Positions 20,625 to 25,657 of a stretch of DNA of 60,197 bases are shown one piece after another. Source of the DNA: Specibacter cremeus (GTDB lineage Bacteria > Actinomycetota > Actinomycetes > Actinomycetales > Micrococcaceae); contig NZ_RWKQ01000014.1 in assembly GCF_003946885.1 (NCBI RefSeq), forward strand, positions 6,463 to 66,659, in the 5' to 3' direction. The notes below the pieces were generated by a model that saw nothing but the letters and a program-made list of their open reading frames with translations, had not been told where the DNA came from and ran no database searches. Within the stretch, counting starts at the first letter, position 1. Every line of letters starts with the position of its first letter. The position numbers and the translations under genes were made by a program.

Positions 20625-20625
20625 C

Positions 20626-20743
20626 GGTGGTCGAGCTTGTCGAGACCCGGTGGTCGAGACCCGGTGGTCGAGCTTGTCGAGACCCGGTGGTCGAGCTTGT
20701 CGAGACCCGGTGGTCGAGTTCGGTGGTCGAGCTTGTCGAGACC
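20626..20743 (+). repeat. Interspersed repeat array A (6 units)
   Basis: Six full or shortened copies of a 22-nt unit that begins GGTGGTCGAG and ends GTCGAGACC start at 20626, 20649, 20663, 20686, 20709 and 20722. Spacings of 13, 14 and 23 nt show the deletions. The array fills the gap between the acyl-CoA dehydrogenase stop and the CoA-transferase ribosome site. Confidence 0.9.
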
Positions 20744-20762
20744 CGCACAGAGAGGATCAATG

Positions 20763-21659
20763 ATGATCAACAAGGTAGTGAAATCCGCGGCCGAGGCCGT
20801 GCACGACATCCACAACGGCTCCTCCCTGGCCGTGGGCGGGTTCGGCCTGTGCGGCATCCCTGTGGCCCTCATCCAGGCCCTGCATGACGCCGGCACCCGG
20901 GAGCTGGAAACCATCTCCAACAACTGCGGCGTGGACGACTGGGGCCTGGGCATCCTGCTCGCCGACGGGCGCATTCGGCGCACCGTCTCTTCCTACGTGG
21001 GCGAGAACAAAGAGTTCGCCCGGCAGTTCCTGGCCGGCGAGCTCGAGGTCGAACTCACCCCGCAGGGCACGCTCGCGGAGAAGTTGCGCGCCGGCGGCGC
21101 CGGAATCCCCGCGTTCTATACGGCCGCCGGCGTCGGCACGCAGGTCAGCGACGGCGGGCTGCCGCGCAAGTACGACGGCGATGGGCGGGTTGCGATCGCC
21201 TCTCCCGCCAAGGAGGTGCGCACCTTCAACGGCGCCGACTATGTCCTGGAGGAATCGCTCACGCCCGACTTCGCCCTGGTCCATGCCCAGAAGGGCGACC
21301 GGCACGGCAACCTGGTCTTCCACGCCACGGCCATGAACTTCAACCCGCTGTGCGCCATGGCCGGGAAGACCACAATCGCCGAGGTCGAGGAACTCGTGGA
21401 ACCCGGCGAGCTCGACCCCGAACACGTCCACGTCCCCGGCATCTTCGTCCAGCGCGTCGTCCACATCCCCCCGGGATCGCCCGGCAGCGAGAAGCGCATC
21501 GAGAAACGCACCGTGTCGGTGGTCGAGCCTGTCGAGTCCCCGGTGGTCGAGCCTGTCGAGACCCAGTCGGTGGTCGAGCCTGTCGAGACCCAGTCGGTGG
21601 TCGAGCCTGTCGAGACCCCGGTGGTCGAGCCTGTCGAGACCCAAACGAAGGAGGCGTGA
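20763..21659 (+). CDS. scoA: 3-oxoacid CoA-transferase subunit A with repeat tail
   Basis: Succinyl-CoA:3-oxoacid CoA-transferase subunit A activates acetoacetate, the end product of leucine breakdown. The family core is intact: [55 protein letters not shown] and VPGIFVQRV. Homologs stop at about residue 250, after EKRIEKRT. This one continues for 47 residues made of five VVEPVET units encoded by the interspersed repeat. AGAGAGGA is 6 nt before the ATG at 20763 (an ATG at 20760 is the alternative). The stop overlaps the region of the scoB ribosome site, so translation through the tail may serve coupling. Confidence 0.9.
21518..21641 (+). repeat. Repeat array B inside scoA, in frame
   Basis: Five full 22-nt units start at 21518, 21542, 21569, 21596 and 21620. 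The periods are 24, 27, 27 and 24, all divisible by three, unlike the intergenic arrays. They are translated as [14 protein letters not shown] separated by P, QS, QS and P. Confidence 0.95.
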
Positions 21660-21661
21660 TC

Positions 21662-22315
21662 GTGGCACTTTCCCGCAACGAGCTGGCGGCCCGGGTGGCA
21701 CGGGAGCTGCACAACGGGCAATACGTGAATCTGGGGATCGGCATGCCGACGCTCATCCCGAACTTCATCCCCGACGGCGTCGAGGTCGTGCTCCACTCGG
21801 AGAACGGGATCCTGGGCACCGGCCCGTACCCGGCGGACGCCGACGTGGACCCGGACCTGATCAACGCCGGGAAGGAGACCGTGACCGTCAACAAGGGCGC
21901 GGCGTTCTTCGACTCGGCCACGTCGTTCGGCATGGTCCGCGGCGGGCACGTGGACGTGGCCGTGCTGGGGGCCATGCAGGTGGCCGAGAACGGCGACCTG
22001 GCGAACTGGATGATCCCCGGCAAGATGGTCAAGGGCATGGGCGGGGCCATGGACCTGGTGTTCGGGGCGAAAAAGCTCATCGTCATGATGGAACACACGG
22101 ACCGGACCGGGAACCCGAAGATCCTGCGCGAGTGCACCCTGCCGTTGACGGGCAAGGCGTGCGTGGACCTGATCGTCACCGACCTGGCCGTCATCGAGGT
22201 CACCGCGGACGGCTTGGTCCTGAAGGAGCTGGCGCCCGGCGTCAGCGTGGCGGACATCGTGGCGGCCACCGGTGCGCCGCTGAACGTAGAGATGCACGAT
22301 CTGGACAACGTATGA
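21662..22315 (+). CDS. scoB: 3-oxoacid CoA-transferase subunit B
   Basis: A 217-aa beta subunit. It carries the catalytic Glu motif [12 protein letters not shown], the N-terminal [15 protein letters not shown], and the oxyanion-region [14 protein letters not shown]. Together with ScoA it transfers CoA from succinyl-CoA to acetoacetate. The GTG at 21662 is chosen because AAGGAGG at 21648-21654 sits 7 nt upstream; the GTG at 21656 is too close. The stop overlaps the next ATG (ATGA). Confidence 0.92.
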
Positions 22316-22858: not shown

Positions 22859-23668
22859 ATGCCGTTCACCATGGGCCCGAGCTTGCTGTTCGCCCCGGCC
22901 GACCGGCCGGACCGGTTCGCGAAGGCCGCCGGCCGGGCGGACGCCGTCATCCTCGACCTGGAGGACGCCGTCGCCCCCGAGGCAAAGGCCGCGGCACGCG
23001 AACACCTGGTCAATACGCCGCTCGACCCGGCCACGACCATGGTGCGCATCAACGCGCTCGGCACGGACGATGCCGCCCGTGACCTCGAGGCACTGGCCAA
23101 CACCTGCTACCGGACCATCATGGTGGCCAAGTCGGAGAACCCGGCCGCGGTGGCGGCGCTCGCGGGCTTCCACGTGGTCGCCTTGTGCGAGACGGCGTCC
23201 GGCGTGCTGGCTGCACCGGCGCTGGCCGGGCTGCCCAACGTGGTGGCGCTGATGTGGGGCGCCGAGGACCTGGTTGCCTCATTGGGCGGCACGGCGAGCC
23301 GACACGTGAACGGCGCCTACCGGGACATCGCCAAGCATGCCCGGGCCACGGTGTTGCTGGCCGCCGGTGCGCACGGCAAGGCGGCCATCGACGCGATCTA
23401 CGCGAACATCCCGGACCTGGCCGGGCTGGCGGCGGAGGCGGGGGACGCCGTCGCCAGTGGGTTCGGTGCCACGGCCTGCATCCACCCGTCACAGGTCGCC
23501 GTCATCCGCGACGCGTACCGCCCCACGCCGGGCCAGGTCGCAGATGCCACGGCCCTGCTCGCCGCGGCCGAAGCCGCCGGCACGGGCGTATTCGTCTACA
23601 ACGGCAAGATGGTGGACGGGCCCATCCTCAAGCATGCCGAGGCAACGTTGCGCCGCGCCGGTAGCTGA
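22859..23668 (+). CDS. CitE-like CoA-ester lyase (Rv2498c-like)
   Basis: A 269-aa TIM-barrel protein of the HpcH/HpaI-CitE family. It shows SLLFAPADRPDRFAKAAG, the metal-binding DLEDAVAPEAK, ALCETASGVL, MWGAEDLVASLGG and the C-terminal ACIHPSQVAVIRDAY. There is no partner citrate lyase alpha or gamma subunit, so it is not citrate lyase. The M. tuberculosis homolog Rv2498c cleaves (R)-3-hydroxy-3-methylglutaryl-CoA and citramalyl-CoA, and here it would give acetyl-CoA and acetoacetate for ScoAB. AAGGAG precedes the ATG. Last gene of the operon; an array of repeats follows. Confidence 0.85.
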   Translation: MPFTMGPSLLFAPADRPDRFAKAAGRADAVILDLEDAVAPEAKAAAREHLVNTPLDPATTMVRINALGTDDAARDLEALANTCYRTIMVAKSENPAAVAALAGFHVVALCETASGVLAAPALAGLPNVVALMWGAEDLVASLGGTASRHVNGAYRDIAKHARATVLLAAGAHGKAAIDAIYANIPDLAGLAAEAGDAVASGFGATACIHPSQVAVIRDAYRPTPGQVADATALLAAAEAAGTGVFVYNGKMVDGPILKHAEATLRRAGS

Positions 23669-23675
23669 GCCCGTC

Positions 23676-23798
23676 GGTGGTCGAGCCCCCGGTGGTCGAG
23701 CCTGTCGAGCCCCCGGTGGTCGAGCCTGTCGAGACCCCCGGTGGTCGAGCCTGTCGAGACCCCGGCGACCGACCCCGGTGGTCGAGCCTGTCGAGACC
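23676..23798 (+). repeat. Interspersed repeat array C
   Basis: Five units of the 22-nt family (GGTGGTCGAGCC form) begin at 23676, 23691, 23715, 23740 and 23777. The spacings 15, 24, 25 and 37 do not keep a reading frame. The array starts 8 bp after the CitE-like gene stop and leads into the GIY-YIG gene. Confidence 0.9.
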
Positions 23799-23895
23799 CC
23801 GGCGCCAGTCCTCCACAAACCGAATCACAACCGATTTATTCACAACTCGTCCTTGTGGCGTTGCCACCAACGCGAAGCTGGACAAATGTCTGCCT

Positions 23896-24210
23896 ATGCC
23901 ACACGTATACATCTTGAAGTGCAGCGATGGGTCCTACTATGTCGGAAGTACTTGGGATTTGGAACGTCGCTTGTCCCAACACAATTCTGGAGACGGCGCC
24001 GCATACACTCGTCGGCGGCGCCCGGTAGTTTTGGTGTGGGCGCAAGAGCACGATCGAGTTGAAACCGCGTTCACCCTGGAAAAGCAAATACAGGGCTGGA
24101 GTCGGGCGAAACGGGAGGCCTTGATCGAAGGAAGACTCCAAGACTTGCCGGCGCTCTCCCGATCCAAGGACAAAGGGCGGTCACGGGAGACCGAACACCG
24201 CCAGCGGTGA
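23896..24210 (+). CDS. GIY-YIG nuclease domain protein
   Basis: A 104-aa stand-alone GIY-YIG domain of the YhbQ/UPF0213 type. The motifs are all present: HVYILKCSDGSYYVGST (the VYI and YVG strands), the catalytic Arg in LERRLSQHN, YTRRRRPVVLVW, and the metal-binding Glu in EKQIQGWSRAKREALI. The biochemical role of such short proteins is unsettled. The ATG at 23896 gives a normal N-terminus; no strong ribosome site precedes it. Its base composition is less GC-rich than the neighbours, and it sits exactly between two arrays of the interspersed repeat, which suggests arrival as a separate piece. Confidence 0.85.
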   Translation: MPHVYILKCSDGSYYVGSTWDLERRLSQHNSGDGAAYTRRRRPVVLVWAQEHDRVETAFTLEKQIQGWSRAKREALIEGRLQDLPALSRSKDKGRSRETEHRQR

Positions 24211-24228
24211 TTGAGCTTGTCGCCGGTG

Positions 24229-24420
24229 AGGTCACCCGGTCTAGACGGGGCTCGACCGCCGGGGGTCTCGACGGGGCTCGACCACCGGGCGGGTCTCGAC
24301 GGGTTCGACCACCGGGGGGTCTCGGCGGGGCTCGACCACCGGGGTCTCGACGGGTTCGACCACCGGGGGGTCTCGACGGGGCTCGACCACCGGGGGGTCT
24401 CGGCGGGGCTCGACCACCGG
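24229..24420 (-). repeat. Interspersed repeat array D (inverse orientation)
   Basis: About eight copies of the same family in the opposite direction (GGTCTCGAC, then GGGCTCGACCACCGG or GGGTTCGACCACCGG), covering nearly the whole 229-bp gap between the GIY-YIG gene and dxr. Array C on the other side of the GIY-YIG gene points the other way, so the gene is framed by inverted arrays. Confidence 0.88.
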
Positions 24421-24426
24421 GTGCGG

Positions 24427-24439: not shown

Positions 24440-25657
24440 ATGCAGCAACGCAACGTCATCATCCTCGGCTCCACCGGTTCCATCGGCACCCAGGCGATGG
24501 ACGTCGTCGACCGCGCGCAACTGCCCGACGGCAGCCCGCGCTTCCGCGTCACGGCACTGTCCGCCGGTGGCGGGAACCTGGCGCTGCTGGCCCGCCAGGC
24601 CGTGCACGCGCGCGCGGCGGCCGTCGGCGTCGCCACGGACGACGCCGGGGCGTTGCGTTCGCTGATCGACGCGGCGGCCGGTGCCGCGGGACTGCCCGGC
24701 TACATGCCCGAGATCGTGGCCGGCCCGGATGCGTCGACGATCATCGCGGACTGGGGCGCCGGCACGGAGGACGCCGCCGACGTCGTGCTCAACGGCATCA
24801 CCGGCTCGATCGGCCTGGCCCCCACGTTGGCCGCGCTGCGAACCCCGGCACTGCTGGCGCTGGCCAACAAGGAATCGCTCATCGTCGGCGGGCGGCTCGT
24901 CAAGGACGCCGCCGCGCCCGGCCAGCTGGTGCCCGTCGACTCGGAGCACTCCGCTTTGGCGCAGGCGCTGCGCTCCGGCAGCCCCGCGGAGGTGGACAGG
25001 CTCATCATCACGGCCTCCGGCGGCCCGTTCCGGGGCAAGACCCGCGCCGAGCTGGGGGACGTGACACCCGCCCAGGCCATGAAGCACCCCACCTGGGACA
25101 TGGGCCCCATGGTCACCACCAACTCCGCCACCCTCGTCAACAAGGGCCTGGAGGTCATCGAGGCGCACCTGCTCTTCGACGTGCCGCTGGACCGGATCGA
25201 GGCCGTCGTGCACCCGCAGTCGATCGTGCACTCCATGGTCCAATTCACCGACGGATCCACGCTGGCCCAGTGCTCCCCGCCCGATATGCGCCTGCCCATC
25301 GCCCTGGGACTGGGCTGGCCCGAACGCGTGCCCGGTGCCGGCGTCGCCTGCGACTGGACACAGGCCGCGACCTGGACGTTCGAGCCGCTCGACAACGACG
25401 CGTTCCCGGCCGTGGAACTGGCCAAGCACGCGGCAGCGCGCGGGGGCACCTGCCCGGCCGTGTACAACGCCGCCAACGAGGAGGCCGTGCACGCGTTCCA
25501 CGCCGGCCGGATCGGCTTCCTCGACATCGTCGACATTATCGAGGTAGTCCTCAGCAAACACTCACCGGAGCTGGAGCTCACGCTAGGCTCCGTGTTGGAC
25601 GCTGAACAGTGGGCACGTACCCGCACCCACGAACGTTTAGCGTTGAAGAGCCGCTAG
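24440..25657 (+). CDS. dxr: 1-deoxy-D-xylulose 5-phosphate reductoisomerase
   Basis: DXR makes 2-C-methyl-D-erythritol 4-phosphate with NADPH in the MEP route to isoprenoids. It shows the NADPH loop GSTGSIG (10-16), [12 protein letters not shown] (140-151), metal ligands D167 and E169 in VDSEHSA, and substrate loops ASGGPFRG and [21 protein letters not shown] (split over about 206-232). The 405-aa length is normal. ispG of the same pathway lies 3.5 kb downstream, with the intramembrane protease between, an order conserved in actinobacteria. Confidence 0.97.

Follow-up and report, generated by a model that had tools for sequence, protein, structure and literature searches.

A dispersed, stop-free repeat read in frame at the end of ScoA and in other proteins of a free-living actinobacterium, and its association with a small GIY-YIG nuclease gene

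How a short repeat that lies mostly between genes comes to be read as protein is the question raised by the scoA-scoB locus in the window analysed here, a stretch of 60,197 nucleotides that is part of contig 6 of draft genome G000 (4.3 Mb, 98 contigs), from a soil bacterium related to Arthrobacter whose genus also includes Arthrobacter wenxiniae, A. silviterrae and A. cryoconiti. The gene scoA (20760..21659, on the + strand like all features below unless stated) encodes subunit A of succinyl-CoA:3-ketoacid CoA-transferase, as identified by its CoA-transferase subunit A domain (TIGR02429, E=1.3e-73, 247 bits against a cut-off of 128.5 in a profile search) and by the scoB frame adjacent on its 3′ side. 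Its best PDB match is 3cdk (E=8.9e-87), aligned over residues 3-253, and the conserved part of the protein closes at EKRIEKRTV, residue 252, so that the CoA-transferase domain finishes before the repeat array, as the original prediction had it. Beyond this point lies a hypervariable C-terminal tail of 47 codons and a stop (21516..21659), in which the predicted reading frame runs through five copies of GTGGTCGAGCCTGTCGAGACC, one of them with a single mismatch. Full copies start at 21519, 21543, 21570, 21597 and 21621, and the periods of 24, 27, 27 and 24 nt given earlier are correct. Copy 1 (21519..21539) has one mismatch to GTGGTYGAGCYTGTCGARACC (GAGTCC, read VES) and would be translated as VVEPVES; copies 2 (21543..21563), 3 (21570..21590), 4 (21597..21617) and 5 (21621..21641) are exact and read VVEPVET. 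An open frame across the array is unremarkable by itself, since all six frames are open and it is therefore expected. A draft assembly can miscount tandem copies, yet one and two in-frame scoA copies are also present in two related genomes, G011 (assembled in 3 contigs) and G016, respectively.

The tail ends on the signal for the next gene. AAGGAGG occupies 21648-21654 and is followed by the scoA stop at 21657-21659, and the final scoA codons (K-E-A-stop, 21648..21659) double as the ribosome site of scoB (AAGGAGGC-gTGA). The GTG of scoB (subunit B, 21663..22315) follows directly, 3 nt past the scoA stop, and there is an alternative GTG at 21656. The claim that the extended frame stops on the scoB ribosome site is therefore accurate. 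A structure prediction for ScoA (28 sequences, mean pLDDT 64) places most of the tail below 50, and says little on tail disorder because the conserved residues 220-252 are also below 50.

The repeat unit is 21 nt long, has the ends GTGGTYGA...TCGARACC, contains no stop codon in any frame and occurs in 291 exact copies in G000, where the reversed control pattern has 0. Its location was classified in a sample consisting of 57 fetched stretches around repeats and the window, with genes called by a home-made codon-usage script. Of 358 copies, with up to 3 mismatches allowed, 258 are intergenic and 100 overlap called genes, short calls included. Three non-coding arrays stand near scoA: one between an acyl-CoA dehydrogenase gene and scoA (20625..20745; full copies 20627-20723, spacings 37, 23 and 36), one upstream of a GIY-YIG nuclease gene (23667..23799; full copies 23692-23778, spacings 24, 25 and 37), and one downstream of that gene, on the - strand and hence inverted relative to the upstream array (24238..24421). 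The irregular intergenic periods reported originally are thus real for full copies, and we take the shorter values listed with them to reflect partial ones. The repeat is a weak, imperfect palindrome; as a hairpin, the 24-nt unit does not score clearly above shuffles (z -0.9), and four longer subtypes gave z values from 0.22 to -1.8.

A candidate for the enzyme that spreads the repeat is encoded 2.3 kb downstream of the ScoA tail. The GIY-YIG gene (23896..24210, 104 aa), proposed here as mobiliser of the repeat, encodes a predicted nuclease with the GIY-YIG domain in residues 2-72 (PF01541, E=2.5e-20), is the single match in G000 and is boxed (window 23667-24421) by + copies upstream and - copies downstream. 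The gene after this unit (window 24440-25657) has a GSTGSIGTQ motif and presumably resembles dxr. Within the genus, a GIY-YIG match was found in 7 of 23 genomes, which have 291, 115, 71, 24, 14, 11 and 0 (G013) exact repeats, versus 0-9 in the other 16 (p=0.001), among which G009 and G002 still hold 9 and 7. Across the family, repeats were counted with the pattern GTGGTYGAN{4,28}TCGARACC, the counts being entered by hand. The gene is present in 11 of 245 Micrococcaceae genomes, and at least 14 pattern matches occur in 10 of these 11 versus 3 of the 234 without it (p=1.7e-14), the exception being G029, which has the gene and 1 match. When gene presence was permuted within genera (65 genomes, the six genera with the gene), 0 of 200,000 permutations reached the observed statistic. 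Three of the 13 GIY-YIG copies of the family look damaged: that of G005 (L176) is without residues 4-19, which include the GIY...YIG motif, that of G097 (L179) is split over two frames, and that of G013 (L175) is altered and without a normal end. G097 and G005 nevertheless have 84 and 32 pattern matches, and the damaged gene in repeat-rich G097 may reflect recent loss, a sequencing fault or a gene that is dispensable. In a sample of the order (376 genomes, 28 with a GIY-YIG match), pattern counts outside the family hardly follow the gene and stay close to background level; the exceptions are G313 (24) and G359 (31), both with the gene, and G378 (20), without it.

The association extends to the flanks of the gene. 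These were scored without reference to the motif, as inverted matches between the 600 nt upstream and the 600 nt downstream, for 42 GIY-YIG loci (two genomes contribute a second locus each, and five loci are weak homologues) and for 288 control genes, taken from stretches of three genomes in which a GIY-YIG gene is present. An inverted score of at least 16 was obtained at 31 of 42 GIY-YIG loci (28 of 35 without the seven second or weak loci) versus 2 of 288 controls, and a score of at least 20 at 21 of 42 versus 1 of 288; in a separate control of 41 scoA loci the maximum was 13. By eye, 27 of the 31 inverted matches hold GTYGAG- or TCGARAC-like repeat ends; of the other four, those at L186, L192 and L193 consist of the palindrome GTTTCACGTGAAAC, and that at L178 (G029) has a different sequence. 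Direct matches with a score of at least 16 were also found, at 20 of 42 loci versus 5 of 288 controls, and other families of the order often have direct, not inverted, matches, while 12 of the 13 loci of the Micrococcaceae score at least 21 inverted and their direct score never exceeds 13. The inner sequence of the repeat varies between lineages and matches on both sides of the gene, as with GTGGTTGAGCGGAGCGCAGCGGAGTCGAAACC near the gene in G122 and G151. In another family of the order, GTTTCACGTGAAAC palindromes, which we take to resemble parS, were observed on both sides of the GIY-YIG gene (L186, L192, L193, L198 and L211).

The GIY-YIG unit lies between the same neighbours, an isochorismatase gene and a gene with sub-threshold helicase matches, in eight genomes. 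Between those neighbours it is reversed in G005 (L176) and G026 (L182) relative to L171-L175 and L178, as if it had been flipped through the flanking repeats. It is elsewhere in G000, before the dxr-like gene, and at other sites in G179, G097 and the pair G122/G151; judged from these gene orders, the unit moves. At the site in G000 that probably corresponds to that of sister species (L161:4095-4657, contig C34) there are three repeat copies, and a tblastn search of the site gave no clear GIY-YIG remnant (best E 6.8). The site has two N positions and a duplicated stretch, and because of this assembly scar it is not called a clean excision.

We give even weight to the proposal, and to its being wrong, that a GIY-YIG nuclease mobilises REP-like repeats in Micrococcaceae and related actinobacteria, in the manner of RAYT transposases, and that the stop-free repeat entered many genes in frame, those of core enzymes among them; the association is seen in the genomes, and from it we infer the enzymatic role. 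A somewhat less probable reading, though one to be taken seriously, is that the gene is a passenger in repeat-rich spots and another enzyme moves the repeat. The evidence is indeed one of association, repeat-bearing genomes without a detectable GIY-YIG gene exist, and the copies in repeat-rich G005 and G097 are damaged. On the other hand, copy number within genera can be predicted from the presence of the gene, and where the inner sequence differs between lineages, each has its own subtype beside its GIY-YIG gene. Of the 23 congeners, just two match PF01797 (Y1_Tnp, RAYT), namely G010 with 0 exact copies of the repeat and G017 with 2. RAYT was rejected as the driver, with 0 matches to PF01797 in G000 and none in the repeat-rich congeners among the 23 genomes searched.

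Whatever its mobiliser, the repeat has entered far more than scoA. In the sampled G000 stretches it occurs in 16 strictly chosen genes (one of them, in L115, only via a copy with 3 mismatches that may be chance), and ScoA is not special, being one of about 16 repeat-bearing genes. By Pfam or NCBIfam, the hosts include RecG, diaminopimelate decarboxylase, HsdM, three 2-oxoacid dehydrogenase E2 genes, a large ATP-dependent helicase (PRK09751, with one N in the gene sequence), a tricorn-type protease, an alpha-mannosidase, a WYL/PafC-type regulator, an amidohydrolase, a luciferase-like enzyme, an S-Me-THD protein and an AAA/RNase H protein; outside the strict count, a NAD-binding/tetrapyrrole methylase protein (L138) and an oxidoreductase (L165) are hosts as well. 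Two of the insertions are internal. LysA (L160:2192-3826, contig C34 of G000) has about 65 repeat-encoded residues within its PLP domain, and PDB 2o0t, presumably the M. tuberculosis structure, aligns on both sides of the insert without a counterpart to it. RecG (L117:2343-4760, contig C4 of G000), compared with PDB 1gm5, has a repeat-encoded insert between its DEAD and Helicase_C domains. The recG and lysA gene sequences contain no N.

These genes allow the frame argument to be put on a broader footing. For all same-strand spacings up to 60 nt, genes were counted strictly if the first copy lay at least 45 nt from the called start, the body was at least 300 nt and the coding score was at least 60, leaving out stretches L137, L138 and L165 and one L161 array, which had been fetched for their likeness to the ScoA tail; two genes were thereby set aside. 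In this strict set (16 genes, 11 arrays), 33 of 33 spacings are divisible by three, compared with 55 of 109 between genes (Fisher p=1.3e-8), and without scoA the coding figure is 29 of 29 (p=6e-8). Under looser criteria (22 genes) the counts are 41 of 42 versus 56 of 113 and, by array, 14 of 15 coding arrays wholly in frame versus 32 of 70 intergenic ones (p=0.001); the sole out-of-frame spacing, 23 nt in L118, belongs to a gene whose called start is inside the repeat and is dropped by the strict filter. The unfiltered first classification, short calls included, gave 51 of 52. Coding spacings range from 24 to 48 nt, and the common intergenic spacings of 24, 45 and 48 nt are also multiples of three. 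The four scoA spacings are weak evidence alone, since half of the intergenic spacings are likewise multiples of three and four in a row would be in frame by chance with a probability of about 0.065. Hence the frame argument drawn originally from the scoA periods does not stand on those four spacings, but frame retention is strong once the confident coding arrays are pooled, and it gains again from the comparison with relatives. Within the strict genes, all 24 gene-strand copies with at most one mismatch are read in the VVEPVET frame, or 27 of 33 when those with 2-3 mismatches are counted.

The relatives of G000 bear on what is being selected at scoA. A ScoA match is present in 23 of 23 genomes of the genus (in G003 only in pieces), and the junction was examined in 22, in which scoA and scoB are separate genes in 19 (G000 included), fused in G018 and G019, and ambiguous, with an unknown base, in G006. 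Length is constant in 21 of 21 aligned genomes both for the scoA core, at 753 nt, and for the part of scoB that begins with the NELAARV motif, at 636 nt. Between them the tail has 16 different lengths, from 12 to 174 nt including the stop, and all 19 unfused tails end at the overlap of ribosome site and stop, where 17 have GGAGGC-stop and G021 and G007 have the less perfect GGGGGC and GGGAGC. G000 has the most VVEPVET copies, five including an altered one, followed by G016 with two and G011 with a single copy. The tails of G008 and G022 hold altered copies, those of G012 and G013 show traces, and that of G004 is KEA alone; A. wenxiniae and A. silviterrae, both soil species, carry one altered copy each. 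Across the 19 genomes there are 38 alternative frames: 9 terminate in the tail, and the other 29 continue beyond the scoA stop, which in 11 cases yields a ScoB fusion. Frame-breaking array lengths are therefore not as common as frame-keeping ones when compared among species, and the fixed end despite 16 tail lengths supports selection for correct termination at scoB rather than a functional tail. The selection on frame suggested originally for scoA/scoB fares well in so far as in-frame retention with termination at scoB is favoured; coupling of translation is the part that we infer. The site itself is hypervariable, tolerant and repeatedly filled, with a peptide that is unconserved and an end of translation that is conserved.

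Other sequences occupy the same position. An unrelated CTCGCAAGCTCGGC element was observed in the ScoA tails of G005 (L008), G002 (L014), G007 (L019) and G010 (L021), and a related-looking element in that of G017. The CTCGCAAGCTCGGC element is low-copy, with 0-3 exact matches per genome; it was considered as a RAYT product and rejected on this ground and because its core is absent from the 1.5 kb flanks of both RAYT loci. In the near-identical G019 (L022) and G018 (L023), scoA and scoB form one frame of 493 codons with a Pro/Ala-rich linker at the position of the tail.

The comparison speaks to the remaining explanations of the array. If selection had favoured the VVEPVET tail for what it does in ScoA, for instance as an acidic/Pro spacer or a partner-binding segment, the uniform VVEPVET reading of the 24 near-exact copies and the retention of five in ScoA would follow. 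We consider this unlikely, and the original idea of a domesticated, useful acidic/Pro tail is not supported, in that sister species have 0-2 copies, only KEA, or either the unrelated element or a different sequence. Moreover, the tails that follow a recognised domain end in named loci have 1-42 residues in 78 of 80 cases and no common sequence by eye, and the same peptide is found in unrelated enzymes. It is similarly improbable that the array works as DNA or RNA (a hairpin, terminator or protein-binding site) and is translated incidentally; the repeat is weakly palindromic and mostly intergenic, as such a role would have it, but its unit does not fold clearly better than shuffled sequence, its copy number and even its presence in scoA vary among congeners, and the RecG and LysA copies sit inside the reading frame. 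That the scoA frame is accidental, with no selection and with common spacings that happen to be multiples of three, is very unlikely, for although half of the intergenic spacings are in frame and the four at scoA could be so by chance, the pooled coding spacings are in frame throughout and 19 of 19 congeners end at the same site with 16 lengths.

The explanation that we regard as probable is as follows. A cluster of copies of the dispersed repeat would have landed in the tolerant C-terminal stretch of ScoA upstream of the scoB ribosome site, and the array would then have altered its copy number. Its insertion leaves ScoA untruncated, since none of the repeat's frames contains a stop. The ribosome would, however, reach the stop codon that overlaps the scoB ribosome site only if the total length of the array keeps the frame; after a frameshift it would mostly read on into scoB, and one of the shifted frames would often give a ScoA-ScoB fusion. 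Selection on right ScoA termination and on scoB expression would thus keep the frame, as the comparison of species suggests, and the VVEPVET sequence itself is most likely just tolerated. Translational coupling at such stop/start spacings is established in general, as outlined in PMC12548453. Termination or coupling as the selective reason, and the neutrality of the tail, are suggested by these sequence comparisons. The repeat itself was probably spread by, or along with, the small GIY-YIG nuclease boxed by inverted copies. The central claim of the original prediction, that a dispersed repeat, found for the most part between genes, has turned into coding sequence at the C-terminus of ScoA, is supported at the level of the genome sequences.

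These findings offer a countable case, from free-living actinobacteria and not from Rickettsia, in which non-coding repeat DNA becomes protein while selection acts on the frame, and they name a testable enzyme for the repeat. They also mean that C-terminal tails and internal inserts of this type in Arthrobacter-like proteins are repeat-derived and not conserved domains. Among the papers listed in a literature search, none describes, by title and opening of the abstract, a link between GIY-YIG genes and such a repeat. Small mobile repeats with open frames inside annotated genes are known from the enterobacterial RU-1, RU-2 and RU-3 elements, which at 103-168 bp are longer and whose abstract mentions no linked nuclease (Delihas 2007, PMC2759123). 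By analogy, the repeat appears to be of a known kind, its closest known parallels being the Rickettsia palindromic elements (RPE), the mycobacterial MIRU and the REP elements.

RPE were reportedly worked on by Ogata and colleagues in 2000 and 2002. They are described as dispersed repeats inserted in frame in unrelated protein genes (in the relevant part of PMC10969869). The G000 repeat is likewise in frame in several unrelated genes, as in the 16 strict genes and the LysA and RecG inserts. RPE, to which it is likened by description and not by sequence, are about 150 bp long, whereas the G000 unit is 21 nt with coding spacings of 24-48 nt, is stop-free in all frames and has a linked GIY-YIG gene. 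MIRU, whose original paper is said to be that of Supply and co-workers in 1997, are a second parallel. They are short interspersed repeats at operon junctions with close stop and start codons, where they are tolerated as translation reaches a coupled stop (as outlined in PMC12548453). The G000 repeat, too, is at an operon gene junction with a stop near the next start. MIRU, on that same outline, insert at the start codon and bring their own ORF coupled at -4 nt, whereas the G000 repeat is upstream of the ribosome site and lengthens ScoA before an existing overlap of ribosome site and stop.

REP elements are linked with RAYT transposases. The G000 repeat resembles them in its tens to hundreds of short units, in its inverted pairs and arrays and in flanking one enzyme gene, and perhaps in the partly palindromic form of the unit. 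REP-like sequences have been counted in Arthrobacter livingstonensis, and REPs by definition seldom overlap coding regions, in the part of PMC12306157 that deals with them. By that definition the G000 repeat differs in being often translated, with over a quarter of the sampled copies overlapping called genes, and it differs further in that G000 has no RAYT match and the flanked gene encodes a GIY-YIG nuclease. If the link with this nuclease is causal, the two would form a second kind of enzyme-repeat partnership beside that of RAYT and REP.
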